64,000 nucleotides of DNA from Epilithonimonas mollis (GTDB lineage Bacteria; Bacteroidota; Bacteroidia; Flavobacteriales; Weeksellaceae). The position numbers and the translations under genes are program-made. Under the pieces are notes generated by a model. It was not told the origin of the DNA. It did no database searches and saw only the letters and a program-made list of their open reading frames with translations. The stretch spans positions 248,001-312,000 of the forward strand of contig NZ_FRAM01000001.1 of assembly GCF_900142325.1 (NCBI RefSeq), read 5' to 3'. Positions 13,103-40,089 of the stretch are shown here, piece after piece. Every line of letters begins with the position of its first letter. Positions within the stretch are counted from its first letter, which is position 1.

Positions 13103-13118
13103 ATTGTCTTTGTCGTTT

Positions 13119-13844: not shown

Positions 13845-13871
13845 TAAGGTGTTAACATTTATGTAACATTA

Positions 13872-13879
13872 CAAATATA
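13872..13879 (-). promoter_or_regulatory. Bacteroidota -7 box upstream of the Nudix regulator operon
   Basis: TATATTTG on the minus strand matches TAnnTTTG, 28 bp before the regulator ATG. I do not see a clear -33 TTG. Confidence 0.45.
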
Positions 13880-13951
13880 AAAATTCAGTTGAATAAAAAA
13901 AATAAAATTCACATTATTACCTGCTTATCAGTAATTTACATATCGATTTTT

Positions 13952-13991
13952 TATGATATCATATGTATAATAATTATGATAAGCTTATCAT
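13952..13991. promoter_or_regulatory. two palindromes, candidate operator sites upstream of the regulator/xyl operon
   Basis: A perfect 12-bp palindrome TATGATATCATA (13952-13963) and a perfect 16-bp palindrome ATGATAAGCTTATCAT (13976-13991) share the half-site ATGAT and lie 108-147 bp upstream of the regulator start. The rest of the 593-bp gap 13845-14437 is very AT-rich with no convincing ORF. Operator function is inferred. Confidence 0.4.
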
Positions 13992-14437
13992 TAAAATTAC
14001 ACTTACTTGTTTTGTAAAGCATGAGTTAACAATTAATTATAAAAACAAATGATGAAAAAAGAGTTAAGTTTTTTTTAAGAAAATATTATGATAAGAATAA
14101 AAATTTTTTAACGCAAAAAAAATATTAAAAAGTGTAAAAACAACACTTTAAAAACTAATAAATTTCCAAATTCTGATATTTTACTTTACCATTTTAAATG
14201 CTGACAAGATAAAATATTCTTAATCCTGGAAATTATGTCCGTAAAATGATGTGAAATTATTAACTATAATCCTTAATGTCTCTGAAAGAAATAACCAACT
14301 GATAAATAGGACATTACTACAATTTTTTTATTTTTATATTAAAGGTTTCGTAATAATTGTATAAATTTAGATTATTATTGATTAACAGAGAATGTCTTAT
14401 AAAAATCAATAAAAATAATAATTAAATATACCTGGAG

Positions 14438-25524: not shown

Positions 25525-26184
25525 TCATTTATTGGTTGCCTTATTAGCTTCCTTCGCCACTTTAAAAAGTGCCGGATTAATATGGCAGTATCCTCCCGGA
25601 TTCTTATCCAGGTAGTCTTGATGGTAATCCTCGGCTTTATAATATTTCTTTATGGGGGTTACTTCAACTGCTATAGCTCTGATATGTTTTGCCGCCTCTT
25701 TATTTATCCGTTGGTTTATAAGTGGTAACTGCTGGCCTGAGGTGTAATAAATGCCCGTACGGTACTGATCACCGATATCATTACCCTGTTTATTTACGCT
25801 CGTAGGATCAATAGCAAGGAAATACAAATCAAGTAACAGATTCAAATCCAATTTTTCAGCATCGTATGTAACCTTTACGGTTTCAGCGTAGCCCGTATTT
25901 TTCTGTACTACATCCTCATATGTCGGATTGTCGGTACGGCCATTGGCAAAGCCTACTTCGGTAGCGATAACACCATCTACCTGTTTAAAAAAATGCTCTG
26001 TTCCCCAGAAACATCCTCCGGCAAAATAGATAACGTCCGTGCTATCGCTATTGCCTGTCATTTCAGTAATGCTTACTTTTTCTTCCAAGCCCTTATTATG
26101 CTCGGCTTTGTTACTCATACTGTTGCTACAACCTGTCATGGCGAAGAAGCCGAGTGCGGTCGATAAGAAAACTACTATATTCAT
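25525..26184 (-). CDS. msrA: peptide methionine sulfoxide reductase MsrA, lipoprotein form
   Basis: 219 residues with a signal peptide and lipobox FAMTGC (Cys19), then an MsrA domain with FAGGCFWGTEHFFK (catalytic Cys), QGNDIGDQYRTGIYY and [20 protein letters not shown]. The lipobox puts this copy outside the cytoplasm. It overlaps the small upstream gene by 4 bp (ATGA) and precedes gapA by 28 bp. Confidence 0.93.
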   Translation of the reverse strand: MNIVVFLSTALGFFAMTGCSNSMSNKAEHNKGLEEKVSITEMTGNSDSTDVIYFAGGCFWGTEHFFKQVDGVIATEVGFANGRTDNPTYEDVVQKNTGYAETVKVTYDAEKLDLNLLLDLYFLAIDPTSVNKQGNDIGDQYRTGIYYTSGQQLPLINQRINKEAAKHIRAIAVEVTPIKKYYKAEDYHQDYLDKNPGGYCHINPALFKVAKEANKATNK

Positions 26185-26390
26185 ATCTTTATTTTTTTAT
26201 TTTCCATTTCTTCAACAAGCTTTTTGTATACCGACTTTGTAAACCGAATATATTCTTTGGTTAAGGTATCATAGCCAACCCATTGTTGGACATTTTCATA
26301 AGGGCATGTAGGTGCGCCTTCCTCCTGTCCAGAGACCAATATATACCGATCGGGATGCAGCTGGTAAATTTCTGCCGTTACTTTGTTCAT
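26181..26390 (-). CDS. 69-residue hypothetical protein between two msrA genes
   Basis: ATG at 26390 (MNKVTAEIYQLHPDRYILVS), starting 4 bp after the upstream msrA stop and overlapping the next msrA start by 4 bp. This tight packing argues that it is translated. It contains GAPTCPYENVQQWVGYD with one Cys and a lysine-rich C-terminus (KKLVEEMENKKIKI). A longer frame to 26438 overlaps msrA and is less likely. I do not recognise a family. Confidence 0.6.
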   Translation of the reverse strand: MNKVTAEIYQLHPDRYILVSGQEEGAPTCPYENVQQWVGYDTLTKEYIRFTKSVYKKLVEEMENKKIKI

Positions 26391-26394
26391 TGCT

Positions 26395-26886
26395 TTACAA
26401 AAAAGTTCCAAAGCGCTCAAAGTGGCAGGTGTAGCCATTCGGATTTTTGACCAGATAATCTTGATGGTAGTCTTCGGCAGGCCAAAATTTTGTGAACGGC
26501 TCCAATGTCGTTACTACCTTTCCAGGCCAGCGTTGCGAATCATCAACTAATTTGATCATTTCCACGGCATCATTTCCTTCTTCATCGTTCTGAATGAATA
26601 GTGCCGAGCGGTAACTTTTGCCCCTGTCATTGCCCTGCCTATCTACCGTGCTGGGATCATGTACCCTGAAAAAATAATCCAATAACTCCCTATAAGTTGT
26701 CTTGCTTGGATCATAGGTAATTTCAACACCCTCTGCATGGCCGGGATGATACTCGTAGGTGGGATTATCGTTCTGTCCCCCTAAGTACCCGACTTCGGTA
26801 TTAATTACGCCAGGACGTGCTCTGAAAAGATCTTCCATGCCCCAGAAACATCCACCCGCCAAATATGCTTTTTTCAAATTTTCCAT
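26395..26886 (-). CDS. msrA: peptide methionine sulfoxide reductase MsrA, cytoplasmic
   Basis: 163 residues, no signal peptide. It has [14 protein letters not shown], the [14 protein letters not shown] segment, [17 protein letters not shown] and [22 protein letters not shown]. This is a standard short MsrA reducing the S-epimer of methionine sulfoxide. It follows msrB by 63 bp in the trxA operon, which supplies its reductant. Confidence 0.95.
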
Positions 26887-26949
26887 TACTTATAGCTTTT
26901 ATTTTATTTAAGTTCTTTAAAATTTTTGATCTGAAATGCTTGAGAGATC

Positions 26950-27396
26950 TCAGCCCTCTACTTTCTTAAGCGCCACGGCATTGATACAGTATCTAAGACC
27001 ACTTGGTGCAGGACCATCCGGAAAAACATGGCCCAAATGCGCATCACAGACATTGCAGGTCGTTTCCACTCTTATCATACCATAACCACCATCCTTATGG
27101 TAGGCAATATTTTCAACAGCTATGGGCTGAGTGAAAGAAGGCCAGCCAGAAGTGCTGTTAAATTTTTCAGTTGCATCAAACAAAGGTGTTCCACAACTGA
27201 TACATTCATATTTACCCGGTTCAAATAAGCCGCACATATCCGAACTATGTGCTCGCTCAGTACCCTTCCCCCTGGTAACAAAATACGAATCGGGGCTTAA
27301 CAGTTCTTTCCATTCCTCGTCTGTTTTTTCCACCCTGCGAGTCGGAACAGGATTACCTTTGTTTACGAACTTGATGATATCATTCCAGTTTAACAT
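26950..27396 (-). CDS. msrB: peptide methionine-R-sulfoxide reductase MsrB
   Basis: 148 residues with two CxxC zinc pairs (CISCGTPLF and CNVCDAHLGHVFPDGP), STSGWPSFTQPI, and the C-terminal catalytic GLRYCINAVALK. It reduces the R-epimer. It is 21 bp downstream of trxA and upstream of msrA. Confidence 0.96.
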   Translation of the reverse strand: MLNWNDIIKFVNKGNPVPTRRVEKTDEEWKELLSPDSYFVTRGKGTERAHSSDMCGLFEPGKYECISCGTPLFDATEKFNSTSGWPSFTQPIAVENIAYHKDGGYGMIRVETTCNVCDAHLGHVFPDGPAPSGLRYCINAVALKKVEG

Positions 27397-27417
27397 AACT
27401 ATTTATTTTGAATGTTA

Positions 27418-27744
27418 CTATTTATTTCCTATTTCCAACGCGGATATCTTCTTTTGAAGTTCATCCTTGGTTCGAAGACCTACTATGGTCTCCACAGCTT
27501 TTTGGTTCTTGAAAAAGATCAATGTGGGGATGCTACGCACACCAAAACGCTGGGCAAGTTCCTGTTGATTATCAACATTAACTTTAACTATTTTGACCTT
27601 CCCCTCAAAGTCTTTGGACAGGTCATCCAATGTGGGTAATAGCGTCTGGCAAGGACCACACCAGTCGGCGTAAAAATCTACAACTACGCTTGCTTCTTTT
27701 TGAATTGTTTCTTCAAATTCCTGTTTACTTTCTATTTTTCTCAT
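27418..27744 (-). CDS. trxA: thioredoxin
   Basis: A 108-residue classical thioredoxin: VVDFYADWCGPCQTLLP (WCGPC) and RSIPTLIFFKNQK (cis-Pro). It is the first gene of the operon trxA-msrB-msrA-orf-msrA-gapA-prx-cysS, directly after a -7 box and two upstream boxes shared with three other promoters in the island. It would recycle the Msr enzymes, using the TrxB encoded at 31147. Confidence 0.96.
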   Translation of the reverse strand: MRKIESKQEFEETIQKEASVVVDFYADWCGPCQTLLPTLDDLSKDFEGKVKIVKVNVDNQQELAQRFGVRSIPTLIFFKNQKAVETIVGLRTKDELQKKISALEIGNK

Positions 27745-27775
27745 AACTAAAAACTTTAATTGTTATCTAACTCCA

Positions 27776-27841
27776 CAAAGTTAATATACGGCAATACCCT
27801 TTCTCTTACCGTTATCACCCGATATTTTGGCAATTCTTCCC
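27776..27841 (-). promoter_or_regulatory. trxA operon promoter with two upstream boxes (shared regulon architecture)
   Basis: Coding-strand -7 box TAACTTTG (27776-27783). A distal box GGGAAGAATTGCC lies at 27829-27841. A weak proximal box GGGTGATAACGGT (27808-27820) sits 24 nt from the -7 box. Box spacing is 21 bp, exactly as at the other three regulated promoters. This is the most degenerate member. Confidence 0.5.
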
Positions 27842-27844
27842 ATC

Positions 27845-28330
27845 TTAAAAATCATTTCGAATATGATGACCGAATGTTTTGCGTATTGCAGCTAGTTTAG
27901 GATTTATATTGGTTTGGCAGAAAGGTTTCTGTTTGTCTTTTTTATAATAATTGAGGAAACGCTCCGAATTCAATCTGAAGTCTGCCAAGGGCAGTGTCTG
28001 TGTAATATATTTGGTGTCATTTTCCTTTGACAGTTTATTGATTATTATTTCGATAGTGTCTTTATCATTGGGATCAATATAATACACTGCCGAACGATAC
28101 TTGTAACGCATACTGTGTGCGCTTGCGCTACTATGCGTCAGCAGATGCACTTCAATTAACACATCCAGTGTGATGCCTTCATTAAAATGGACAATAACGG
28201 CTTCTGAAAATGTATCATAGGGGTTCAATGAGGAGATCCAGCCCTGCTCCACAGACTCAACGCCATTTAAAGCCTGAAATATGGCTTCTGTACACCAATG
28301 ACAGCCTCCACCAAAACCTATTTTTTTCAT
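27845..28330 (-). CDS. divergent MsrA-family protein
   Basis: 161 residues from ATG 28330. The MsrA fold is recognisable (GFGGGCHWCTEAIFQALNGV and KYRSAVYY), but the motif is GCHWC instead of GCFWG/GCFWC, the GYSGG stretch is GWISS, and the HDPT and AEDYHQ motifs are missing. The Phe-to-His change alters the aromatic pocket that grips the methyl sulfoxide, so substrate or activity may differ. It ends 61 bp upstream of the trxA promoter's -7 box and just overlooks the operator region. Confidence 0.75.
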   Translation of the reverse strand: MKKIGFGGGCHWCTEAIFQALNGVESVEQGWISSLNPYDTFSEAVIVHFNEGITLDVLIEVHLLTHSSASAHSMRYKYRSAVYYIDPNDKDTIEIIINKLSKENDTKYITQTLPLADFRLNSERFLNYYKKDKQKPFCQTNINPKLAAIRKTFGHHIRNDF

Positions 28331-28394
28331 ATTTCTTATTAACAAATTATTATCTGAGCTAGCGTCTTTTATATTAAAATAATGAATTGAACTC

Positions 28395-28604
28395 CTAAAG
28401 ATTATTCGGAGATGCTGCGCATTCTAAAAATTCTTCGAGTTGTGATATCGTTGGATTCTTAATATAATCGTTGCCCACTATTATGGTAGGGAACTTTAAT
28501 TTACCTTCGTACAGACCCCGTACTTTAGCTTCGGCTTCAATTTTTGTTTCCACATTAAAATCATCAAATTCCATCCATTTGCTTTGCAGGTAGTCGGTAA
28601 CATC
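28395..28604 (-). pseudogene. glutaredoxin/thioredoxin-fold remnant (C-terminal part)
   Basis: An open stretch reads VTDYLQSKWMEFDDFNVETK and goes on to RGLYEGKLKFPTIIVGNDYI, typical of the second half of a NrdH/glutaredoxin-like protein (cis-Pro in FPTI). The N-terminal half with the CxxC is missing. It is joined in frame, after a stop codon, to the remnant of a different gene (OsmC), so this is a deletion scar. Confidence 0.6.
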
Positions 28605-28835
28605 TCATCCCTTCCTTTTGATATACATCCGTAAATTGGTCAATGTACAGCTACAATACCAGATAAAACCGTTGTAAACGGATCGGAACCAATATCACTA
28701 CCACCATTAAATGCTGGTTCATCGAGAACCAGTTGTCCTGCTCGCCAGTTAAAAGTAATTTTCCTGGTTGTCTTTAACGATATCACCCATAATATCCTTT
28801 ACGAAGAGTCGTACGGTTTGTTTTTTGTGTATCAT
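28605..28835 (-). pseudogene. OsmC-family peroxidase remnant with frameshifts
   Basis: From ATG 28835: MIHKKQTVRLFVKDIMGDIV, a frameshift near TTTTAACTGG, then NWRAGQLVLDEPAFNGGSDI GSDPF in a second frame, a further shift, and CTLTNLRMYIKRKG followed by TGA where OsmC proteins have Trp. The GG.D.GP.PF and TLRMY pattern is the OsmC signature. It is broken by two shifts and a stop, then runs into the glutaredoxin remnant. The rest of the gap to 29092 shows no gene. Confidence 0.6.
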
Positions 28836-29092
28836 AATTTTTAAATTTGCACGATCTTAGAAGTATTTGGTTCCCTTTGAAAAATCCTTTTGAATTCAGT
28901 ATTCTTTATCTAATACAATTAGCTTTCCTGTTAGCTGGCGCTCCATATATGACAACTTCTATCTTTACCAATATTTATGGCTTGGACGTCTGGGTAACAA
29001 CAGATAACACGAATGAAGCTTAACAACTTGGAGTATCTCTTTTCGAATTTCAAGATATGATTCTATGTACGCTGGATCGGTTATCATTGTGT

Positions 29093-29386
29093 TTACATAC
29101 GGGCACGGATGTCTCCGTAAGTCTCCGGATATTTGTTAAACATCATCGCCACAAAACCACATTTAGCTATTACTTTCAGGTTGTTTCGGCGAGCATAGTC
29201 AACTACTGCGTCTACGAGTTTCTTGCCATATCCACTTTTACGCTGGGCAAAGCCAACACTGGTATATCCCGCTTCCAATATATCGGGAGTAACGGTGACA
29301 AGCATTCTGCCAACTTCCTGGCCATCTGCATGAAGCGAAAAAAAAGAGATGCCTTTTTGGCCTTTGTGTATTTCAATCTTTTCCAT
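29093..29386 (-). CDS. short GNAT-type acetyltransferase domain protein (YjdJ-like)
   Basis: 97 residues of the small single-domain GNAT subfamily: HADGQEVGRMLVTVTP, GFAQRKSGYGKKLVDAVVDY (acetyl-CoA-binding helix region) and KCGFVAMMFNKYPETY. The substrate of this subfamily is unknown. It is 67 bp downstream of glnS on the same strand. Confidence 0.75.
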   Translation of the reverse strand: MEKIEIHKGQKGISFFSLHADGQEVGRMLVTVTPDILEAGYTSVGFAQRKSGYGKKLVDAVVDYARRNNLKVIAKCGFVAMMFNKYPETYGDIRARM

Positions 29387-29453
29387 TTTATGTATTTTTT
29401 AAATAATTGATATTTGTTTGTTATTTAAGCATGAGTTATTGTAAAATGAATTT

Positions 29454-31106
29454 TTAAGTTTTCTTCCAGTTTTCTCTCAGACCGACGGTTCTGTTAAAAA
29501 TAAAATGATCCGCTGTTGAGTTCCTGTCTTTTATAAAATAGCCCATTCTGACAAATTGAAAATTTACACCTACATCGTCTCTATTAATGAGATCATTCTC
29601 TACATAGGCGTTTGGCAATACCTGAATACTGTCTTTGTTAAAATGTTTTAGGAATTCGTCGCCCGTTTGACCAGGATCTTCTATCTCAAAAAGTTTATTG
29701 TAGAGACGGATTTCGGCCGGGATAGCAAAAGGAATACTTAACCAATGGATCGTGCTTTTTACTTTAATGTTACTATGATCGTGACCAGACTTGCTTTCCG
29801 GAAAATATTTACAATGAAGTTCTGAGATGTTTCCATCTTCATCTTTTACAACATGTTCACATAAGATGATATATGCTCCTTTCAACCTGACTGCTCCTCC
29901 TAAAGTCAACCTGAAGTAATTCTTTGTCGGATGCTCCATAAAATCGTCCTGCTCGATCCATAACTCCCGGGTAAATGGCACCTCACGACTACCTTCAGCT
30001 TCTTCTCCCGGTAAATTCTCTAAAACTATATTTTCAGTAAATTCTTGGCCGTAATTCGTTATAATAACTCTCAACGGTTTTAAAACGGCAATCCTCCGCT
30101 GTGCCGTTTTATTTAGATCCTCGCGGACACAAAATTCCAACAGATTGTAATCTGTAATGGCGTCCCGCTTTGCGACGCCAATCCGATCACAAAATTCCCG
30201 GATAGCGTTTGGGGTATATCCCCTTCGGCGCAGACCCGCTACCGTAGGTAGTCGCGGATCATCCCATCCATCAACCAGGCCTTTTTCAACCAGCTGCTGC
30301 AACTTGCGCTTGCTCATGATTGTAAAAGCAAGATTCAAACGAGCAAATTCAATCTGTTTGGAGGGAAATAAGCCCAATTTCTCGATAAACCAATTATAAA
30401 GCGGACGGTGTGCAACAAACTCAAGGGTGCAGGTGGAATGCGTGATGCATTCAATAGCATCCGACTGTCCATGAGCAAAATCATACATGGGATAAATACA
30501 CCATGCACTCCCGGTACGATGATGGGGTGTGTGTTTGATGCGATATATGATCGGGTCTCTCATGTGCATATTAGCGGCCTTCATATCAATCTTAGCACGC
30601 AATACTTTCGCCCCATCTTTGAAGCTGCCAACCTTCATCGCTTCGAATAAAAGTAGATTTTCATCTATCGAACGTCCTCTGTATCGATTAGGTACTCCCG
30701 TAACTTGGGGAGTACCTTTCTGCTCGGCAATTTCTTCAGGTGTGCTATCGTCAACGTAAGCGAGGTCTCTTTTGATTAATTCTATGGCAAATCCGTAGAG
30801 GATTTCAAAGTAGTCGGAAGCATAGAATTCATTATGCCATTCAAATCCCAACCACTGAATATCTTTCCTGATGGCATCTATATAACTGCTGTTTTCTCTT
30901 TCTGGATTGGTATCGTCAAACCTCAGGTTAACCCGTCCTTTGTATTTTGATGCAAGCCCAAAATTCAAGCAGATGGATTTGGCATGACCGAGATGCAGAT
31001 ATCCATTAGGCTCTGGAGGGAACCTCGTCGAGATACCTTCACTGTAAACCTCATTACAGATGTCTTGCTCAATGATTGCTTCGATAAAATTTAATGATTC
31101 CTCCAT
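29454..31106 (-). CDS. glnS: glutaminyl-tRNA synthetase (extra copy inside mobile cargo)
   Basis: A 550-residue class I GlnRS with FPPEPNGYLHLGHAKS (HIGH), RFDDTNPEREN, and the KMSKS equivalent FTIMSKRKLQQLV; the C-terminal anticodon-binding beta-barrels are complete. It is in the same transcription direction as trxB, the msrBA fusion and the ergothioneine genes. Its placement in a redox cargo block parallels cysS and gapA. Confidence 0.95.
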   Translation of the reverse strand: MEESLNFIEAIIEQDICNEVYSEGISTRFPPEPNGYLHLGHAKSICLNFGLASKYKGRVNLRFDDTNPERENSSYIDAIRKDIQWLGFEWHNEFYASDYFEILYGFAIELIKRDLAYVDDSTPEEIAEQKGTPQVTGVPNRYRGRSIDENLLLFEAMKVGSFKDGAKVLRAKIDMKAANMHMRDPIIYRIKHTPHHRTGSAWCIYPMYDFAHGQSDAIECITHSTCTLEFVAHRPLYNWFIEKLGLFPSKQIEFARLNLAFTIMSKRKLQQLVEKGLVDGWDDPRLPTVAGLRRRGYTPNAIREFCDRIGVAKRDAITDYNLLEFCVREDLNKTAQRRIAVLKPLRVIITNYGQEFTENIVLENLPGEEAEGSREVPFTRELWIEQDDFMEHPTKNYFRLTLGGAVRLKGAYIILCEHVVKDEDGNISELHCKYFPESKSGHDHSNIKVKSTIHWLSIPFAIPAEIRLYNKLFEIEDPGQTGDEFLKHFNKDSIQVLPNAYVENDLINRDDVGVNFQFVRMGYFIKDRNSTADHFIFNRTVGLRENWKKT

Positions 31107-31146
31107 ACATTGTTATTCCTTTATTTGTTAAATCATTTGGCAGCCA

Positions 31147-32106
31147 TTATTCAATAGCCCCGTGTTCCATAGCCGATAGAAACCGTTCGCAATCTAGGGC
31201 CGCCATACAGCCACTTCCCGCAGCGGTAATTGCCTGACGGTAGTTCGGGTCCTGAGCGTCACCACAACAGAAAATGCCCGGGATATTTGTTTTTGTAGAA
31301 CAATTTTTTGTTTTAATATATCCTACATTATCCATATCAATCCAGGGGCTGAATACACCGGTATTTGGACGGTGGCCGATGGCTAAAAACAGACCGGTTA
31401 CGTCTAGTTTAGTTTCCTCCGAAGTAATGTTATGGAATAACCGGGCACCATTAACTTTTACACCATCTCCGAGGATTTCTTTTACCTCGACGTTAAACAT
31501 GATTTCAATGTTAGGCGTGTTTTCTACCCGATGAACCATTGTTTTCGAAGCCCTGAAGTTGGATTTACGAACCAACATGTATACTTTCCTACAAAGTTTT
31601 GATAGGTGCAGTGCTTCCTCAGCCGCAGTATCCCCGGCACCTACAATGGCAACATCCTCGCCCTTAAAGAAGAACCCATCACAGGTGGCACAGGCCGAAA
31701 CCCCGTGACCCGAATATTGCTCTTCCGAATCAAGTCCCAAAAGCTTTGGTGTTGCTCCTGTAGCGATAATCACGGAATCTGCCAGTAACACCTTGTTTTC
31801 ATCGATGGTAACTTTATAAGGCCGTTCAGAAAAATCGACATCGCTTGCAAACCCGATCCGCAGATCTGCGCCCATTCTGGAAGCCTGTTTGTGAAAACCT
31901 TCCATCATTTCGGGCCCCATTATACCATCAGGATATCCCGGATAATTTTCGACATCAGAGGTTTTAGTAAGCTGCCCGCCGATAAGTAAGCCTGTATATA
32001 GTACAGGTTTTAGGTCTGCGCGGGCAGTATAAATGGCGGCGGTGTAACCTGCTGGTCCAGATCCGATGATCAGACATTTTATTCGTTCGTGTTGTTCTGT
32101 ATTCAA
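31147..32106 (-). CDS. trxB: thioredoxin reductase
   Basis: A 319-residue low-molecular-weight TrxB: FAD site GSGPAGYTAAIYTARA, redox motif SACATCDGFFF, NADPH site VGAGDTAAEEALHL, and C-terminal CGDAQDPNYRQAITAAGSG. It reduces thioredoxin with NADPH and so powers the Msr enzymes. It is 27 bp downstream of the msrB-msrA fusion gene. Confidence 0.96.
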   Translation of the reverse strand: MNTEQHERIKCLIIGSGPAGYTAAIYTARADLKPVLYTGLLIGGQLTKTSDVENYPGYPDGIMGPEMMEGFHKQASRMGADLRIGFASDVDFSERPYKVTIDENKVLLADSVIIATGATPKLLGLDSEEQYSGHGVSACATCDGFFFKGEDVAIVGAGDTAAEEALHLSKLCRKVYMLVRKSNFRASKTMVHRVENTPNIEIMFNVEVKEILGDGVKVNGARLFHNITSEETKLDVTGLFLAIGHRPNTGVFSPWIDMDNVGYIKTKNCSTKTNIPGIFCCGDAQDPNYRQAITAAGSGCMAALDCERFLSAMEHGAIE

Positions 32107-32133
32107 TTGTATCTCTGTTTTAATAAGTTAGCG

Positions 32134-33102
32134 TTATTTTATTTTGTCATTATACAATTCCCTGAATTTAGATAGTTTAGGATCGATAATAGCCTGGCAA
32201 TATCCTCCGTCGGGGTTCTTGTTGTAGTAATCCTGATGATAATCTTCCGCTTTGTAAAAGTGTTCGAACATTTCTATTTGAGTAACAATCATATCTAAAT
32301 ATGATTTCTGCACTTCATCAATAACCTTCATCGCAGCTTGTTTTTCATCTTCAGTCCTGTAAAAAATGATGCTCCGGTATTGGGAACCCTGATCCGCACC
32401 CTGTTCGTCCACGGTTGTTGGGTTGTGGGTACTCAGATGTATTCGCAGTAAATCATCAAATGATATTTCGTTTGGATTGTAGGTAACTTCAATCATTTCA
32501 GCATGTCCGGTTGCACCGCTGCAAACCTCTCGATAGGTTGGGTTGGTGATCTTCCCTCCACTGTAGCCACTCTCTACTTTTATTACCCCTTTCAGTCGTT
32601 GAAAGATCGCTTCGGTACACCAGAAGCAGCCTCCACCTAAATCCACCTTCTTTTCGCTAACATCTACCTTTTTTAGCGAAACGGCATTCATGCAATAGCG
32701 AAGACCGCTCGGCATAGGTCCATCCTGAAAGACATGCCCCAGGTGGGCATCACAGGTATTGCAGAGCGCCTCAATACGCACCATACCAAATGTGCTATCC
32801 TTATGGTAGGCAACTGCATTTTCTTGTATCGGCTGCGTGAAGGAGGGCCATCCCGTCCCACTTTCAAACTTAGTGTCCGAATCAAATAGTGCTGTACCAC
32901 AGCAAACGCAGGTGTATCTTCCCGGCTCAAAATAGGAACACAGGTCAGAACTGAATGCATGCTCTGTCCCCTTAAGCCGCGTAACATTGAACTGCTCTTC
33001 TGTAAGCAGTGCTTTCCATTCCTTTTCAGTCTTTTCCACTCTTTTGTCAGGAGCAGGGTTGCCGTTGTTGGCATATTTTATTACATCAAGCCATTTTAGC
33101 AT
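32134..33102 (-). CDS. bifunctional methionine sulfoxide reductase, MsrB-MsrA order
   Basis: A 322-residue fusion. Residues 1-145 are MsrB (CVCCGTALF, CNTCDAHLGHVFQDGP, catalytic GLRYCMNAVSLKKV) and residues about 155-322 are MsrA (LGGGCFWCTEAIFQRLKGV, GYSGGKITNPTYREV, HLSTHNPTTVDEQGADQGSQ, EDYHQDYYNKNPDGGYC). It handles both sulfoxide epimers in one chain, with no signal peptide or thioredoxin domain. The MsrB half resembles the stand-alone MsrB at 26950. Confidence 0.95.
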   Translation of the reverse strand: MLKWLDVIKYANNGNPAPDKRVEKTEKEWKALLTEEQFNVTRLKGTEHAFSSDLCSYFEPGRYTCVCCGTALFDSDTKFESGTGWPSFTQPIQENAVAYHKDSTFGMVRIEALCNTCDAHLGHVFQDGPMPSGLRYCMNAVSLKKVDVSEKKVDLGGGCFWCTEAIFQRLKGVIKVESGYSGGKITNPTYREVCSGATGHAEMIEVTYNPNEISFDDLLRIHLSTHNPTTVDEQGADQGSQYRSIIFYRTEDEKQAAMKVIDEVQKSYLDMIVTQIEMFEHFYKAEDYHQDYYNKNPDGGYCQAIIDPKLSKFRELYNDKIK

Positions 33103-33182
33103 AATCGTATGATTTTAAAAGTTTAAAAATCGATTCAATCGTAAAGTCTTTACCGTTGAAAACAAAGGATTCATTTTGTTTC

Positions 33183-33353
33183 TTACCCATAAGCTCCAGG
33201 TAAAATGGATGCTTCGGGTGACATGGCAATAAAATGCTTTCTATCAAGGTCAAATTGGCATCCAGGTATTCCAATAGTGTAGTATTTACCCTCTACCAAT
33301 GCTATCGCACCTTTTGTAAAAGGAACTACTTTTAACACTGCTTTATAGATCAT
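33183..33353 (-). CDS. uncertain small ORF between egtB and msrBA, possibly frameshifted
   Basis: ATG 33353 overlaps the egtB stop by 11 bp and gives 56 residues (MIYKAVLKVVPFTKGAIALV, then EGKYYTIGIPGCQFDLDRK). A second frame continues as MGKKQNESFVFNGKDFTIES to 33086, overlapping its stop. The two pieces together may be one protein split by a frameshift. I recognise no family. Confidence 0.35.
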   Translation of the reverse strand: MIYKAVLKVVPFTKGAIALVEGKYYTIGIPGCQFDLDRKHFIAMSPEASILPGAYG

Positions 33354-34515
33354 CAGTATTAACGGTCCGTGCCAGCCTGATACCTGTATATTGCCATCTT
33401 AAATGCGGATGGAAGAAATTGCGGTAACTTGGACGGCTATGTTCCGGCGGCGTGACAATTGAAGCGCCACGGAGTACCATTTGATTAACCATAAATTTGC
33501 CATTATACTCTCCGATAGCCCCGGCGGCTCGGACGTATCCGGGATAGGGCAGATATGCGCTGCCGGTCCATTCCCAACGGTCACCCCAAGGAAATTGGTT
33601 ACACATTGCTTCCCACTCAAATTCTGTAGGCAATCTCATTCCTTTCCATGCCGCAAAGGCGGATGCTTCGTAATAGCTAACATGAGCAACCGGTTGGTCC
33701 ATTTTCAATGGTTGGATTCCAGCCGTACCGTAGGAATACCATTGGTCAGCTATCCAATGCCAGTAAAGTGGCGCATCAATGTTATTATTTTTCACCCAAT
33801 CAAGACCCTCGGCATGCCAGTATTCATGTTTCTTGTACCCGTCATCCTTGATGAAGGAGAGATATTCGCCATTTGTGACCAGATTCTTCGCTATTTTAAA
33901 TGCTGGGAGAAAGACTTTATGACGCCCAAGTTCATTGTCAAAGCAGAATCCATTGCCATCGTATCCAATGTTGTGCATGGAATCTTTAACGGTAATAAAC
34001 TCATTGGTAGCCGTATCTACGGCTATTGGATTTAAAATTTCCTCATAGGTTGGAAAGAGCGGATTGTGTCCTAAAATATATTTAATATCGGTCGCTAATA
34101 ATTCCTGATGCTGCTCTTCATGATTAAGTCCAAGAATAATAAGGGCATGTAGTTCCTCACTTACCGGTTGACTAAGCAACTTGTCCATTGCCACATCGAC
34201 ATGACGGCGATATTCATAGACCTCGTCAACAGTTGGCCGGCTTAAATTACCACGGTTAGTCCGTATCACACGTGCGCCTAAACTCTCATAATAACTGTTA
34301 AACACGAAATGATAAGACGGATTAAAACTGGAATAATCTTCAACATAGCATACCAGGATAAAGGTTTCAAAGAACCAGGATGTATGTCCTAAGTGCCATT
34401 TTGGAGGACTCACGTCTACTATCGGTTGTACCACATAATCTTCCTTCTCCAAGGTCGAACAGATGTCTTCGCTTCGTTTGCGGACTTTACTGTATTTATC
34501 TTTAATAGCTATCAT
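33343..34515 (-). CDS. egtB: EgtB-type ergothioneine sulfoxide synthase
   Basis: 390 residues. The N-terminal DinB-like domain holds the iron ligands KWHLGHTSWFFE and GLNHEEQHQELLATD (H...HxxxHxE). The C-terminal FGE-sulfatase/C-type-lectin domain includes KGMRLPTEFEWEAMCNQF, WEWTGSAYLPYPGY, NGKFMVNQMVLRGAS and the terminal RWQYTGIRLAR. EgtB joins a sulfur donor to hercynine with oxygen. No EgtA or EgtC is nearby, so free cysteine is the likelier donor than gamma-glutamylcysteine (inference). Its ATG overlaps the egtU-like stop by 4 bp. Confidence 0.88.
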   Translation of the reverse strand: MIAIKDKYSKVRKRSEDICSTLEKEDYVVQPIVDVSPPKWHLGHTSWFFETFILVCYVEDYSSFNPSYHFVFNSYYESLGARVIRTNRGNLSRPTVDEVYEYRRHVDVAMDKLLSQPVSEELHALIILGLNHEEQHQELLATDIKYILGHNPLFPTYEEILNPIAVDTATNEFITVKDSMHNIGYDGNGFCFDNELGRHKVFLPAFKIAKNLVTNGEYLSFIKDDGYKKHEYWHAEGLDWVKNNNIDAPLYWHWIADQWYSYGTAGIQPLKMDQPVAHVSYYEASAFAAWKGMRLPTEFEWEAMCNQFPWGDRWEWTGSAYLPYPGYVRAAGAIGEYNGKFMVNQMVLRGASIVTPPEHSRPSYRNFFHPHLRWQYTGIRLARTVNTDDL

Positions 34516-36080
34516 TTTTCTAATTTTAGATAATTGGACAAATCACTAATTGTCCGAATTTTAAGTCGTTTAACGTCTTCTTTCCGCATCATTAAAGCAT
34601 AAGTGTTATTGAATCCTACAGGCTTTAACCATTTGATTTGAAACTGCTGTTTAAACGCCCGTTGCACATAATCATACACCGCATCTTTATTTGCTATCAG
34701 CCTGTGCACAGTTGCCGAATCGGCGTGCAACATGACCGTCAGTCCTGTTCCTGTGTATTCCGGATATAGATCAATCTGATCGTTCATTAGTGCGTCAAAG
34801 CATATTTTAGTGCCGCCTAATCCGGTTTTTGGTAAAACATCCAAGTCTGTATAACCCCTGATAAGCTGTGTATAAATGCTTGCAAGAATATATTGCTCGT
34901 CAAATACTTTAGAGCCAATCCTGATTGAGCTTTTACCGACAGGACGGGCCGGTTTATATAATCGTTGGCTTTCAAGAAACTCACGGGCAATGGTAGCCGG
35001 TTCACGGTGTAGATAGTCGGCCTGATAGTTAAGGGAAGTCATGATCGAATCATTGATCCTACCTGCAAGTAGGTTAAGTACAGGTTCCAGTTCGGGGAAG
35101 CGCTGGAGTGTCTGCTCCTTTATAATCGGTGCCGCATAATATGGGGGAAATATTCTCTTGTCATCTTCCAGGCTAACCAACTGGTAAGCATCAATCCGGC
35201 CGTCGGTACCATAGCCACTCACTACATCAAGCTTTTTCTCATAAATTGCTTTGTACATAACGGCGTCATTGATAACCACTGTCGGTATCTTTAAACCATA
35301 TATTTGCTGTAGGCCGATGTAACCATCGGCACGTCCCATAAATTCAGGAGTAAACCCCGCTAATAATTTACTCCGTTCTATGGATGGAATGATATAGAAC
35401 CCCGAAAGCAAAACAAATCCTGCCATGATGGAAGAAAGGCCCGCTATCTTCCTAAATCTTGTTTTTTGTAGACGCGAAAGAACAAAATCGAAAAGAAGCG
35501 CCAGCAAGGCCGCAGGTATTGCACCTGCAAGCATCATGGTTGTATTGTTCAGCGAAATCCCGCCAAAAATAAACTCGCCCAATCCACCGGCCGCTATATA
35601 TGCGGCAAGTGTGGCTACTCCAACGTTGATGATCGTCGCGATACGAACGCCGGCAAGTATTACAGGCATTGCTAGTGGCAGCTCAACTTTCAGTAATGAT
35701 TGCTTATAGCTCATGCCGAGCCCTCTTGCAGCCTCTTTTATCTCAGGATCAATGTTTATAATACCAGTGTAGGTATTGCGAACAATAGGAAGCAGGCCGT
35801 ATAAGAACAATGCTGCAATAGCGGGCTTGGCACCAATACCCAATACAGGAATCAGCAACCCGAGCAATGCTATGCTTGGAATTGTTTGCATCACTCCGGC
35901 GATACCAAGAACCGAGGATGACAACTTTCTTTGTCTGCTGATGAGAATACCTGCGGGAACACCTACCATTATCGCAAGGGATATGGACATAAATGTAAGC
36001 CCGATATGTTGCCCGGTTTGTTCGAGCAACTTTTCCCAATGGCGGGCAACAAACTCCCAAAGATTAATACTGTCGTTCAT
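34512..36080 (-). CDS. ABC permease fused to substrate-binding domain (OpuC/EgtU type)
   Basis: 522 residues. Residues 1-205 form a BPD-type permease with about five to six membrane helices and the EAA loop EIKEAARGLGMSYKQSLLKV. A linker helix (residues about 205-235) leads to an OpuAC-type substrate-binding domain (residues 240-522) with SKVFDEQYILASIYTQLI and YPEYTGTGLTVML. This permease-SBD fusion is the architecture of glycine-betaine/carnitine importers and of EgtU, the ergothioneine importer of Helicobacter and streptococci. Between egtV-like and egtB with 4-bp overlaps on both sides, ergothioneine or a precursor is the best-supported substrate. Confidence 0.85.
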   Translation of the reverse strand: MNDSINLWEFVARHWEKLLEQTGQHIGLTFMSISLAIMVGVPAGILISRQRKLSSSVLGIAGVMQTIPSIALLGLLIPVLGIGAKPAIAALFLYGLLPIVRNTYTGIINIDPEIKEAARGLGMSYKQSLLKVELPLAMPVILAGVRIATIINVGVATLAAYIAAGGLGEFIFGGISLNNTTMMLAGAIPAALLALLFDFVLSRLQKTRFRKIAGLSSIMAGFVLLSGFYIIPSIERSKLLAGFTPEFMGRADGYIGLQQIYGLKIPTVVINDAVMYKAIYEKKLDVVSGYGTDGRIDAYQLVSLEDDKRIFPPYYAAPIIKEQTLQRFPELEPVLNLLAGRINDSIMTSLNYQADYLHREPATIAREFLESQRLYKPARPVGKSSIRIGSKVFDEQYILASIYTQLIRGYTDLDVLPKTGLGGTKICFDALMNDQIDLYPEYTGTGLTVMLHADSATVHRLIANKDAVYDYVQRAFKQQFQIKWLKPVGFNNTYALMMRKEDVKRLKIRTISDLSNYLKLEK

Positions 36081-37051
36081 CTTTGATTATCGTTTTGATG
36101 TAATCGATATGCATTCATGAGATCGCTCCATGTAATACGCTTCGATTCACCGTAATATTCGTGTCGCATGGTGATGAACTGACAATTTTCAGTGTTATGC
36201 TGAAACCGTTCCATTGCATTCCATAATGTGGTATCACCGACCGGCTCCGCAGAAAGACCTTCTTCGTCACCGCTTTCTCCCGACAGGTAATTCCACAGGT
36301 CATCAATCGATGTAACGCCAAGCGAAAGTTTTAAATAGTCGTTTGAAAGAAAATCTTTTACGAAATCATTAGCAGGATTGTATAATAGTTCAGATGGCAT
36401 TCCTTGCTGAACCAGTTTCCCATGACGAAGCAAAACAACGGTATTTGCCATTGAAAATGCTTCCTGGATGTCGTGAGAAACCATGATGATCGTTTTCTTC
36501 CGGAATTCATCTAGGCGCATAAATTCCTCCCGAATGGATTTTCTGGTAATGGCATCTAAAGCACTGAACGGTTCATCCATCAATAATACCGGTGGATCTG
36601 TAGCAAGAGCCCGCGCGATATTTACTCGTTGTGCCTCGCCGCCGCTTAATTCTTCCGGTCTGCGAGATAGATATTTTTCAGGTAAGTGTAACTTTGCCAT
36701 CAGTTCTCTAACTCTTTGAGCAGTCGTCTGCTTGTTCCATTTTAACAGACTGGGCACCACACTAATATTCTCTTCCACGGTATAATGTGGAAAAAGACTA
36801 TTGCGTTGAAGTACATAGCCAATCCGACGCCGCAGCTCATCCTGAGGCTGCTCCTGGATATCCTTTCCATTGATCGATATTGTACCGGCTGAAGGAACTA
36901 CCAGACCGTTAATCATGCGAAGTAATGTTGTTTTACCGCTTCCACTGGGTCCAAGCAATACAGCGTGTTCGCCCTCAGCAATATTAAGATCGACGTTTTC
37001 TATTGCTGAATGTGCTCCAAAAGACTTACTTACCTGGCGAATACTGATCAT
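36077..37051 (-). CDS. ABC transporter ATPase (OpuCA/EgtV type)
   Basis: 324 residues: Walker A LLGPSGSGKTTLLRMI, Q-loop RIGYVLQRNSLFPH, signature LSGGEAQRVNIARALA, Walker B VLLMDEPFSALD and switch His in MVSHDIQE. The C-terminal 90 residues are an extension after the nucleotide-binding domain. It energises the fused permease encoded directly downstream (4-bp overlap). Its stop-start overlaps the oxidoreductase gene by 4 bp as well. Confidence 0.9.
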   Translation of the reverse strand: MISIRQVSKSFGAHSAIENVDLNIAEGEHAVLLGPSGSGKTTLLRMINGLVVPSAGTISINGKDIQEQPQDELRRRIGYVLQRNSLFPHYTVEENISVVPSLLKWNKQTTAQRVRELMAKLHLPEKYLSRRPEELSGGEAQRVNIARALATDPPVLLMDEPFSALDAITRKSIREEFMRLDEFRKKTIIMVSHDIQEAFSMANTVVLLRHGKLVQQGMPSELLYNPANDFVKDFLSNDYLKLSLGVTSIDDLWNYLSGESGDEEGLSAEPVGDTTLWNAMERFQHNTENCQFITMRHEYYGESKRITWSDLMNAYRLHQNDNQR

Positions 37052-38451
37052 AACTTAGCTTTTGGTTTTATATGTGCCGGGTGGAAAAGATTATTGATAG
37101 CTTCTGCATATGTGGGATGGGCAAACATGGTATCGCGCAACTGTTCATAGGTAAGACCGCCCATCATGGCCACCTCTAGCAAAGACATCAATTCGCCACC
37201 GTTTGGACAAATCACAGCGACACCTAAAATCTTCTTTGTTTTGTTGTCAATAATTGCTTTAATAAATCCGCTTGTTTCGCCAATCTCTACTGCCCGGGCA
37301 ATAGAAGAAGTATTCATTTTTGCAACCGAAAAGTCCAGACCCATTTCAACGGCTTCCTTTTCAGTGAGCCCAATTCTTCCCAACTCAGGATCAATAAAAA
37401 CACAGTAAGGGATTATCCGATTGTGGATAGAGGATATTTTTTTATCCAATAGATTTTCAGCTAACACAATATAATCATGATAGGATACATGGGTGAATGC
37501 AGGCCCGCCTTTTACATCGCCTAGCGCGTAAATACCTAGTTCGGTTGTTTCCAAATAATCGTTAACAGGAATAAATCCCTTTCCATCAACCATGATACCT
37601 GTTTTTAGTAAATCCAAGTCTTCCGTGTTTGGCGTTCTACCGGTAGCAACCAACAGATCCGTGCCCTTTAACGTGTATGATTGCTGCGTGGAAAGAATTT
37701 CTACGGCGATACGCCCATCGGTCGAGGCACCAACACGTTTAATGGATGCATCCATAACGATCTGCACACCTTCGACCTCAAGAATTCTGGTGATTTCTAA
37801 TCCTACATCCTCATCTTCTTTTGGCAGTAACCTGGCAGATTTTTCAATGATCGTAACCTGGCTGCCCATCCGACGAAAAATCTGCGCAAATTCAAGTGCC
37901 ACGTAGCCGCCGCCGGCAATAATCAAATGCTCGGGCAGATATTCAAGGTCTAAAATGGTTTCCGAGGTTAAAAAATTGACTGATTGCAACCCATCGATAT
38001 CCGGAATACGGGGCCGAGCGCCCGTGTTAATAAATACCCAGTCCGCCGTAATTAATTTAAAGCTCAAATCTGCCTGTTGTACACTGACTTCCTTATATCC
38101 TGAAAACTTGCCTTTTCCATGATAAACCGTAATATTTGGGTCCTCAATTAGTCTATTTTCAAGCCCTTCCCGGTAATAGGATACAACTTCGTTCTTGCGT
38201 TGATTGATTAGTTTATAATCCGGAACATCGTTATTTAGTATGATGCCATAGTCTGAGGCCTTGCGTGCTTGGACAATGTTTTTAGCCAGACCAACCAAAG
38301 TTTTTGTCGGTGTGCATCCATAGTTAACACAAGTGCCTCCTATATATACTGATTCGACAATAGCCACACGTTTACCCTCCCTAGTCAATCGCTTTGCTAA
38401 GGGATTGCCGGCCTGACCGGAACCAATAATTATCGCATCAAATCTTTCCAT
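37048..38451 (-). CDS. FAD-dependent pyridine nucleotide-disulfide oxidoreductase (MerA/RclA-like)
   Basis: A 467-residue class I flavin disulfide reductase: FAD site IIGSGQAGNPLAKRL, redox pair GGTCVNYGCTPTKTL (C-x4-C), NAD(P) site IAGGGYVALEFAQIF, YALGDVKGGPAFTH, and the C-terminal base in MFAHPTYAEAINNLF. It lacks both the N-terminal heavy-metal domain and the C-terminal Cys pair of mercuric reductase, so it is not a true MerA. Encoded between egtD and the EgtV-like ATPase, it could reduce an ergothioneine-derived disulfide; RclA-type reactive-chlorine defence is the other candidate. Both are inferences. Confidence 0.88.
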   Translation of the reverse strand: MERFDAIIIGSGQAGNPLAKRLTREGKRVAIVESVYIGGTCVNYGCTPTKTLVGLAKNIVQARKASDYGIILNNDVPDYKLINQRKNEVVSYYREGLENRLIEDPNITVYHGKGKFSGYKEVSVQQADLSFKLITADWVFINTGARPRIPDIDGLQSVNFLTSETILDLEYLPEHLIIAGGGYVALEFAQIFRRMGSQVTIIEKSARLLPKEDEDVGLEITRILEVEGVQIVMDASIKRVGASTDGRIAVEILSTQQSYTLKGTDLLVATGRTPNTEDLDLLKTGIMVDGKGFIPVNDYLETTELGIYALGDVKGGPAFTHVSYHDYIVLAENLLDKKISSIHNRIIPYCVFIDPELGRIGLTEKEAVEMGLDFSVAKMNTSSIARAVEIGETSGFIKAIIDNKTKKILGVAVICPNGGELMSLLEVAMMGGLTYEQLRDTMFAHPTYAEAINNLFHPAHIKPKAKL

Positions 38452-38462
38452 ATTATTTTAAT

Positions 38463-39443
38463 TTAAACAACCGTCCAAAGTGCATCCATAAACCAAGATT
38501 TGCTGTCCACGAACTCCACCACATGGATAAACCCATTGTCTGCCGCTATTTGGTGAATCTGATCTCTAGAATATTTTTGGGATATTTCAGTCCATATACA
38601 TTCGTCTTTTTCAAAAGGAATACTGACGCCGGATATGTTTACTGACATTTCGCTTAAACTGACGAGATAGCTTTTGGCTGACCCTGTCAAAGGATCATAG
38701 CTACAGTAATGGTCAAACTGGTCAATCTTAAAATCTGCATCTAATTCACGGTTAATTCTCGCTAAGAGGTTTAGATTAAATTCCCGGGTCAGGCCATCCC
38801 TGTCATCGTATGCTTGCTTGATAATTGCAGGATGTTTTACAAGATCAAATCCGATGATACACTGATCACCGGGCTGTAAATAACTACGAAGCGCTTTACA
38901 GAAGCGGTTAGCTTCAGCTATTGTCATATTCCCGATATTGCCGCCTAAACACATCACAACTTTTCGCGCCCCTGGCAATAAACAATGGTGGGCTAATGCG
39001 TCAAAGTAGTCACCTACCAATCCATTAAATTGTAAATCCGGAGCGTTCTCCGGTAGAAATGATTGCAGCTCACTGATTACGTTTTCAGATATGTCGATGG
39101 GTACATAATTAAAAGACACATTTGCATTAACAAGGGCACTTAATAGATGAATTGATTTAGCGCAATTACCTGGTCCCAGTTCAATTAATTCAAAATCTGA
39201 GTTTTGACCTGTTATCCTTTCAACAATTTGTTTGGCTTGACAAGTGAAAATTTCCATTTCACACCGGGTGAGATAATAATCCGGAGACATCATAATGGCC
39301 TCAAAGAGGCCATCACCTTTTTTGTCGTAAAAGTATTTTGAGGATAGCCTTTTTGGGGTTTCCTTCAGACTCTGGATAACGTCCAAATAAAAATCTTTAT
39401 TTTTTGTTGCAAATCTGTACTCGTCTGTCTCTATTGATATCAT
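38463..39443 (-). CDS. egtD: L-histidine N-alpha-trimethyltransferase EgtD
   Basis: A 326-residue EgtD (DUF2260/Methyltransf_33) that makes hercynine from histidine with three SAM molecules. The family opening KETPKRLSSKYFYDKKGDGLF and MSPDYYLTRCEMEI is clear; SAM motif ELGPGNCAKSIHLLSAL; the FNGLVGDYFDAL segment; MCLGGNIGNM; and the end YSRDQIHQIAADNGF. It is the first gene of the operon egtD-reductase-egtV-egtU-egtB. Confidence 0.93.
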   Translation of the reverse strand: MISIETDEYRFATKNKDFYLDVIQSLKETPKRLSSKYFYDKKGDGLFEAIMMSPDYYLTRCEMEIFTCQAKQIVERITGQNSDFELIELGPGNCAKSIHLLSALVNANVSFNYVPIDISENVISELQSFLPENAPDLQFNGLVGDYFDALAHHCLLPGARKVVMCLGGNIGNMTIAEANRFCKALRSYLQPGDQCIIGFDLVKHPAIIKQAYDDRDGLTREFNLNLLARINRELDADFKIDQFDHYCSYDPLTGSAKSYLVSLSEMSVNISGVSIPFEKDECIWTEISQKYSRDQIHQIAADNGFIHVVEFVDSKSWFMDALWTVV

Positions 39444-39509
39444 ATTGTTTTAACAGGGTTTAAAAGATAAACTTATATTTCGCCCGATTGCTTAAAATCA
39501 TCAAAGCAT

Positions 39510-39540
39510 AAAGATGGCAAGTTAAAAACTTGCCATCTTT
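39510..39540 (-). terminator. stem-loop between the 39595 gene and egtD
   Basis: A perfect 14-bp inverted repeat (AAAGATGGCAAGTT / AACTTGCCATCTTT) with a 3-nt loop, 55 bp past the upstream gene's stop and 67 bp before egtD. It separates the two transcripts. Confidence 0.7.
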
Positions 39541-39594
39541 TAAACATTGACATTTATCACACAAATCAATTGTGAAATTGATTCCTGCCGAAAA

Positions 39595-40065
39595 TTATAG
39601 GGTCTTAAACTCGACTCTTTTAAGGCGACTATCATTTAGTATGCTTGTTGAAAGCCATACGTATTGCCGTGTTTGTTCATCAAATCCCAGCATCGTAAAA
39701 TCAGTTCCTACAGGACATGCAGGGTAATCAGGAAACCCAATCCGCAACACGTATCGATTGTTATCTGCGTTAAAATCTGATGGCGTAATTTTTTTCAACC
39801 CATATTTTACATAGGGGTCCTGATCGTCAAAGACGTAGCTAATCAGAGATGCGTCTCTCAGTATCTTGGTAATTGGTTGCTCTTCCATATAGAAGTACAT
39901 TCCTAAAAGATCAACGATCAGCCCCCTTAACTCATATTGCGGCACCGAAACAGCGAATAGATATTGTGTATTGAAGGCGTCTTCGGTGACATCAAATTGG
40001 TATGCCCCTTCAATAATTACATCTTCTTCTTTAAACCCTTGGTTCATGCTTGTCGAAAAAATCAT
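39595..40065 (-). CDS. hypothetical protein
   Basis: 156 residues, acidic, no membrane segment; MNQGFKEEDVIIEGAYQFDV near the start and FGFPDYPACPVGTDF-like RIGFPDYPACPVGTDFTMLG with a single Cys. An alternative start is Met7 (40047). I do not recognise the family. It lies between a truncated CMD gene and the egt operon and is followed by a terminator, so it is a separate unit. Confidence 0.55.
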   Translation of the reverse strand: MIFSTSMNQGFKEEDVIIEGAYQFDVTEDAFNTQYLFAVSVPQYELRGLIVDLLGMYFYMEEQPITKILRDASLISYVFDDQDPYVKYGLKKITPSDFNADNNRYVLRIGFPDYPACPVGTDFTMLGFDEQTRQYVWLSTSILNDSRLKRVEFKTL

Positions 40066-40089
40066 ATCGTTTTTTATGATAAAAATCTC

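Follow-up and report, generated by a model that had tools for sequence, protein, structure and literature searches.

A candidate ergothioneine cassette of Bacteroidota that joins egtB and an egtD-like gene to a circularly permuted importer and a flavoprotein reductase

Introduction

The closest described counterparts of the locus reported here are the mycobacterial egtABCDE cluster (PMC11993508), the cysteine-preferring ergothioneine (ET) pathway enzyme CthEgtB (PMC10903977) and the EgtU importers, whose close homologues occur almost exclusively in Firmicutes as a way to obtain ET that the cell does not synthesise (PMC9732360). Oxidised ET can be reduced by mammalian thioredoxin reductase and also by glutathione reductase together with glutathione (PMC9816654). 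We analysed a 64,000-nucleotide stretch of Epilithonimonas mollis (contig NZ_FRAM01000001.1, positions 248,001 to 312,000; hereafter the window), in which five genes on the minus strand (33343-39443) encode, in transcription order, an EgtD-like enzyme, a flavoprotein disulfide reductase (FDR), an ABC ATPase, a permease fused to a substrate-binding domain (SBD) that sequence and structure model indicate to be circularly permuted, and EgtB. We propose, with a probability of roughly 0.55, that they form a conserved Bacteroidota cassette for ET synthesis, recapture of the pathway's betaines and re-reduction by the FDR.

In such a cassette, as far as homology predicts the reactions, the EgtD-like enzyme would convert histidine to hercynine, EgtB would join hercynine and cysteine with O2 to give a sulfoxide, and a non-dedicated pyridoxal phosphate (PLP)-dependent C-S lyase would complete ET. 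The ABC transporter, with an EgtU/ProX-type SBD permuted to OpuAC order, would recover pathway betaine from the periplasm, ET first and hercynine second, and the NAD(P)H-dependent FDR would act on oxidised ET, or on the sulfenate-level compound that the lyase releases, and reduce it again; what the transporter carries and what the FDR reduces are guesses from gene linkage.

Operon architecture and predicted ergothioneine synthesis

All five open reading frames are present and intact, as a previous sequence-only reading of this DNA had claimed. The first (38463-39443) encodes the EgtD-like histidine N-alpha-methyltransferase (326 aa, PF10017) and is followed by the gene for the FDR (37048-38451; 467 aa, Pyr_redox_2 and Pyr_redox_dim), a class-I flavoprotein disulfide reductase. 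The genes for the ATPase (36077-37051; 324 aa, ABC_tran), the permease-SBD fusion (34512-36080; 522 aa, BPD_transp_1 and OpuAC) and EgtB (33343-34515; 390 aa, TIGR03440) each overlap the preceding gene by 4 bp. These three overlaps had been read correctly; the 11 bp noted at the fourth junction, egtD/FDR, are a gap and not an overlap.

EgtB scores 528.8 bits against TIGR03440, above the equivalog cut-off of 360, and carries the motifs KWHLGH (39-44) and HEEQHQE (132-138). Its closest solved relatives, matched over nearly their full length with ~412 bits, are 6o6l, 8qf6 and 6qki, all of the CthEgtB type, and this proximity to a cysteine-preferring enzyme is in line with a direct use of cysteine. 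The EgtD-like protein matches PF10017 with 311 bits (cut-off 23), and its residues ~20-304 match Mycobacterium EgtD structures; Y39, Y56, GN 171-172, E286 and S288 lie where, as we presume, the substrate residues of EgtD are found. The earlier claim of ET synthesis by EgtD and EgtB is therefore well supported as a prediction, and the operon very probably makes ET or hercynine.

A circularly permuted substrate-binding domain

The ATPase matches ABC_tran (140.3 bits) and shows Walker A (34-42), LSGGE (135-139) and Walker B (156-161) motifs; its best NCBIfam match, proV TIGR01186, stays below the cut-off (286.2 against 326.6 bits). Its partner consists of a membrane part (~1-234; BPD_transp_1, 88.1 bits) and an SBD (~237-519; OpuAC, 172 bits in two stretches), and the combination of an ATPase with a permease-SBD fusion is that of the EgtU importers. 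The two parts of the SBD do not follow the native EgtU order: residues 237-374 match EgtUC 137-276, and residues 384-519 match the first half of OsmF. Re-ordering the SBD in silico gives a single complete stretch of match. In the structure model it forms one block (pLDDT 73-97 over 241-520), with a continuous fold match to OpuAC in the OpuAC domain order and 13% identity within that match. Matches to solved sequences, 37 and 27 in number, included no OpuAC SBD, and 7ahc was matched through its permease part only. Sequence and model together indicate that the SBD is a circular permutant, EgtU/ProX-like in sequence but with its halves in the order of OpuAC. The sequence-only reading had mentioned neither this permutation nor the oxidative-stress and conjugation genes in the neighbourhood of the operon.

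Among named homologues of the fusion, that of Chryseobacterium sp. T20 is the closest (95%). Two relatives of 788 and 805 aa (P0020 and P0035) carry a single permuted SBD behind a pair of permease domains, and on the Martelella plasmid pMM593 (L140) an unpermuted SBD relative adjoins hutC and hutH, possibly a locus for the breakdown of histidine-betaine or ET. Literature searches, covering titles and the openings of abstracts, found no paper on this SBD permutation or on a Bacteroidota egt operon with a reductase and an importer.

Conservation across Bacteroidota

Named genomes were scanned with the permease-SBD alignment and the best 80 loci were kept; being found through the permease, these loci give linkage counts that lean towards it. 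Among the 67 with at least 3.5 kb on each side, the ATPase is present in 67, EgtB in 66, EgtD in 66 and an intact FDR in 56, and L067 has neither egt gene. The whole set of 80, in which many loci are cut by contig ends, holds EgtD in 77, EgtB in 76, the ATPase in 74, the FDR in 61 and a DUF427 protein in 39. The usual order is FDR-ATPase-permease-EgtB-EgtD; EgtD stands first in the window and in Sphingobacterium arenae, and EgtB-EgtD in Niastella soli. With three gene orders, the genes appear to have been kept together through rearrangement. The combination had been called unusual from the sequence alone, a view contradicted by its recurrence in Sphingobacteriaceae and Chitinophagaceae.

To counter the bias towards the permease, a phylum sample of 148 genomes at least 90% complete was examined. 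Eight have a full-length permease match (at least 652 bits), five of them, including the query genome, with EgtB and FDR within ~4 kb. FDR matches occur in 24 genomes (five at 746-800, seven at 463-616 and twelve at 355-375 bits), and all five of at least 746 bits, a cut set after the scores had been seen, have EgtB and the permease-SBD gene no more than ~4 kb away, one of them being that of the query genome. Among 98 related genomes, EgtB occurs in 23 (22 besides the query); 20 of these 22 were compared, and 13 have EgtD-EgtB without the permease. The EgtB proteins of same-genus genomes are only 61-63% identical to that of the window.

The DUF427 protein, which is not part of the window operon, adjoins the egt cassette in its 39 loci (for example L006, 6270-6551; one member was checked with Pfam), and a probable DUF427-like protein (L143, 5397-5885) lies between the EgtD-like and ATPase genes of genome G173. 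Other flavoprotein reductases occur beside or near egtB in L102, L133, L134 and L135, all of the same order; within the 13 permease-less genomes these are an FDR-like protein (41%) beside EgtB in L135 and thioredoxin reductase (TrxR)-like proteins (28-29%) beside EgtB or ~1 kb off in L133 and L134, which hints that egtB has been paired with a reductase more than once.

Ligand pocket of the importer

Following the SpEgtUC residue numbering of PMC9732360, checked against the SpEgtUC sequence, nine of the 14 positions named there are identical in the window SBD: K242, T275, T296, N339, Y341, E375, R379, Y419 and Y443, the agreeing window residues being Y494, Y290, Y314, N492, K391, T424, T445, R250 and E246. 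I243 is conservatively replaced by V. The other four differ: T274, which varies among EgtUs (PMC9732360), is G423 here, and G244, F293 and Y337 are changed as well. Apart from F293 the cage is kept, and so is the carboxylate set (Y494, Y290, Y314, N492, K391, T445 and R250); at Y290, 9 of the 88 family rows have S.

Of the 88 family members, 86 have K425, and L067 also has it in spite of the lack of an egt gene in its flanks. A placement of K425 opposite EgtU T275 was discarded: in the SpEgtUC sequence T275 corresponds to T424 and K425 faces S276, so K425 is a correlate and not a known contact. As a clue to ligand choice it is a lead only.

Flavoprotein disulfide reductase

The FDR has the FAD/NAD domains (Pyr_redox_2, 194.5 bits), the dimerisation domain (Pyr_redox_dim, 103.3 bits) and the CxxxxC motif (41-46) of a class-I enzyme, as well as HPTxxE (445-450). 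E203 ends the second NAD(P) beta strand, at a place where we take glutamate to mark NADH enzymes, which suggests NADH as cofactor. The protein falls under the cut-off of all 25 NCBIfam families listed among the 58 matched, the top score being that of NF004992 (492.5 against 629); the equivalog scores for MerA (374.8 of 454.45) and mycothione reductase (320.9 of 501) are likewise too low. An FDR tree of 67 rows comprised 62 cassette proteins (the window and 61 loci; the contig of L032 ends before EgtB) and five others. A branch with support 87/89, short of the level starred by the tool, sets the 62 apart, and the other side has only five rows because three of the eight intended loci yielded none that passed the motif filter.

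Evidence against the cassette and alternative explanations

Against a conserved ET cassette weigh a number of observations on its linkage, its synthesis genes, its importer and its reductase. Eleven of the 67 flanked loci lack an intact FDR (counting L047, where it is split over two frames), and in seven of the 20 compared EgtB genomes, all from same-genus species, it is missing from an EgtD-EgtB-ATPase-permease set, so the FDR is dispensable. Three of the eight full-length permuted permeases of the phylum sample lie away from EgtB: in G164 and G220 EgtB is on a different contig, and G173 has none above the cut-off. The FDR matches of 463-616 bits in seven genomes are not near EgtB, and one of the five non-cassette proteins in the tree comes from L135, where the FDR adjoins EgtB. 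The methyltransferase scores 274.4 bits against TIGR03438, under the equivalog cut-off of 290.9, for which reason we call it EgtD-like.

No dedicated EgtE was recognised among the 11 matches of a genome search with Aminotran_5, other PLP lyase families being unsearched; an EgtE elsewhere in the genome, as the sequence-only reading had expected, was thus not found. Three matches are strong, the other eight reaching at most 37 bits, and by their sequences, without a family scan, we read them as SufS, an IscS-like desulfurase and SerC. In engineered yeast, an enzyme of the host or abiotic chemistry has been proposed to account for the EgtE reaction (PMC11993508), so a lyase of general function may do this work here. 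In five Pedobacter loci (L030, L051, L055, L063 and L080; ~12681-14006) a class-V aminotransferase-like protein, a candidate EgtE, adjoins egtD on the opposite strand; beyond these it matches L069 and L075 (~21%) and part of L096. Its best match among the 11 Aminotran_5 loci of the window's genome reached only 22 bits (E 0.88).

As to the ET importer of the sequence-only reading, the fusion and the betaine cage expected of an EgtU-like protein are kept, but the three positions that separate EgtU from the glycine-betaine-binding AfProX (G244, F293 and Y337; PMC9732360) are all AfProX-like, as F393, Y442 and F490, and so they are in every one of the 88 aligned rows of the family. The substitution G244F costs SpEgtUC ~100-fold in affinity (PMC9732360). 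Given the AfProX state of all three switches, the SBD is not filed as EgtU and ET import is not established; its service to ET metabolism rests on linkage. On that basis the transporter quite probably serves a betaine of the ET pathway, and the chances that this is ET itself are about even.

Could the permutation be an annotation artefact, or the SBD two half-domains, as the two separate stretches of profile match might suggest? We regard this as scarcely credible, because the motifs used class 79 of the 88 rows taken from loci and 118 of the 120 taken from searches as permuted (the remaining 9 and 2 being unscorable by them), the usual order appears in no scorable relative, the re-ordered SBD is one complete domain and the OpuAC fold match is continuous. 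An importer that carries hercynine (or histidine betaine) instead of ET, to feed EgtB, is unlikely. It would suit the Phe that replaces G244, a glycine near the EgtU water network around the thioimidazole (PMC9732360), and the row of EgtD-like, DUF427-like, ATPase and permuted permease-SBD genes in G173, which has no EgtB above the cut-off (best TIGR03440 score 46.8 bits); but EgtB is also present in 66 of the 67 flanked loci, and G173 has a different pocket (Q at 393 and at 425) and an EgtD-like protein only 36% identical. In its own right, this G173 row (L143) is a possible hercynine-only system. Somewhat less likely again is an ordinary importer of glycine betaine or other osmoprotectants that came into the operon by chance. 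At all three switches the residue agrees with AfProX, the SBD fold resembles OpuAC, many relatives are annotated as osmoprotectant transporters and L067 has the ATPase and a permease with K425 without any egt gene in its 9-kb flanks; against this, the transporter stands beside egtB and egtD in 66 of 67 loci with three gene orders, and K425, nearly invariant in the family, is replaced by T, Q and Q in the three permuted homologues that are not encoded near EgtB.

For the FDR, re-reduction of oxidised ET is plausible, a guess from linkage whose odds, for action on ET forms in general, we put slightly short of even. It competes with the view, which we hold to be a less probable but serious one, that the FDR is a general reductase of the RclA/HOSCN-reductase or lipoamide-dehydrogenase type, tied to ET only through a shared oxidative-stress response. 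The nearest solved chains are 6kgy (300.7 bits), which we take to be RclA, then 8ajj and 8ajk, presumably HOSCN reductase, and 5x1y; the lipoamide dehydrogenase family TIGR01350 is the nearest miss, at 394.9 of 408.8, ~14 bits short; and genes for methionine sulfoxide reductases (Msr), thioredoxin and TrxR surround the operon. The FDR nevertheless lies far under the equivalog cut-offs for RclA (388 of 740) and HOSCN reductase (376.5 of 650), and relatives of the window's MsrB-MsrA fusion and TrxR occur only in L002 among the best 80 cassette loci, for which reason we consider the egt cassette, rather than the stress region, to be the partner of the FDR.

Genomic context

After a 240-bp gap, egtB is followed by genes for an MsrB-MsrA fusion (32134-33102) and a TrxR (31147-32106), both on the minus strand. 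A terminator-like hairpin (39510-39542) lies upstream of egtD, between it and a 156-aa gene (39595-40065); the RNA fold of the 121 nt at 39480-39600 has -36.6 kcal/mol and a z of -4.52. The region holds second copies of GlnRS (53% identical to the other copy), CysRS (61%), TrxR (57%) and GAPDH (40%), along with several MsrA and MsrB, thioredoxin, redoxins and carboxymuconolactone-decarboxylase-family proteins. Positions 25871-40083 are collinear with S. arenae in six pieces of 73.7-84.7% nucleotide identity, most of them ~78%; the shared block measures at least 14 kb and may extend further, as the compared locus ends there.

The stress genes are followed by DUF4099/DUF3945, topoisomerase and N6-methylase genes and, beyond the window on the same contig, ~28-52 kb from egtD, by MobB, MobC, TraJ, TraK, TraM and TraN, all above their cut-offs; a tyrosine-recombinase-like protein below cut-offs also lies beyond the window. 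Together these genes probably belong to a conjugative element whose cargo relates to oxidative stress. Two assumed flanks shared no exact stretch of at least 15 bp that could mark element ends or attachment repeats, and in the S. arenae genome no TraJ scored above the cut-off (best 73.9 bits), so a link between the block and an element of this type does not hold in that genome. The probably mobile oxidative-stress region spans window positions 21523-50333 and G000 contig C4 to ~354400, and a cargo of duplicate thiol-dependent housekeeping enzymes is worth a separate study.

Significance and comparison with known systems

If the proposed cassette is real, the making, recapture and re-reduction of ET would be co-encoded in one bacterial unit, and active bacterial ET recycling would become testable with five genes. 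The importer gene adjoins ET synthesis genes, in a phylum other than Firmicutes, and its SBD appears to be a natural circular permutant that has kept the ligand cage. An EgtU-like sequence is by itself no proof of ET transport, and in interest the permuted importer with its non-EgtU pocket outweighs mere co-location. A bolder version, which we consider doubtful, would make this a standard, self-contained ergothioneine economy cassette of Bacteroidota, in which ET is made, recaptured and, once oxidised, reduced by an enzyme dedicated to it; its importer would have evolved from a ProX/EgtU-type sequence to OpuAC topology and found a means of ligand choice of its own, perhaps through K425, and in the lineage of the window it would be cargo of a mobile stress island with second copies of thiol-dependent housekeeping enzymes.

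The window operon has egtB and egtD in common with the mycobacterial egtABCDE cluster as described in PMC11993508, but it is without egtA, egtC and egtE and adds an importer and a reductase. CthEgtB of Chloracidobacterium thermophilum is the nearest solved EgtB, although the window protein has 390 aa and the CthEgtB-type chains 434-462. With RclA, HOSCN reductase, mycothione reductase and lipoamide dehydrogenase the FDR shares its fold, CxxxxC, HPxxxE and the FAD/NAD(P) motifs, whereas it stays below their equivalog cut-offs (narrowly for lipoamide dehydrogenase) and clusters with the FDRs of egt cassettes. Compared with OpuAC/OpuA of Bacillus subtilis and Lactococcus lactis, the SBD is only 13% identical to OpuAC and has a Tyr cage of the ProX/EgtU kind. 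The architecture of an ATPase with a permease-SBD fusion is common to the window and to the EgtU of Streptococcus pneumoniae, Enterococcus faecalis, Staphylococcus aureus and Listeria monocytogenes (BilEB), as far as PMC9732360 describes them, and EgtUC is 41-45% identical over 136-159 Foldseek-aligned columns, about half of the SBD. Unlike EgtU, the window SBD is permuted, has F, Y and F in place of G244, F293 and Y337, adjoins egtB and egtD, and belongs to Bacteroidota instead of Firmicutes.

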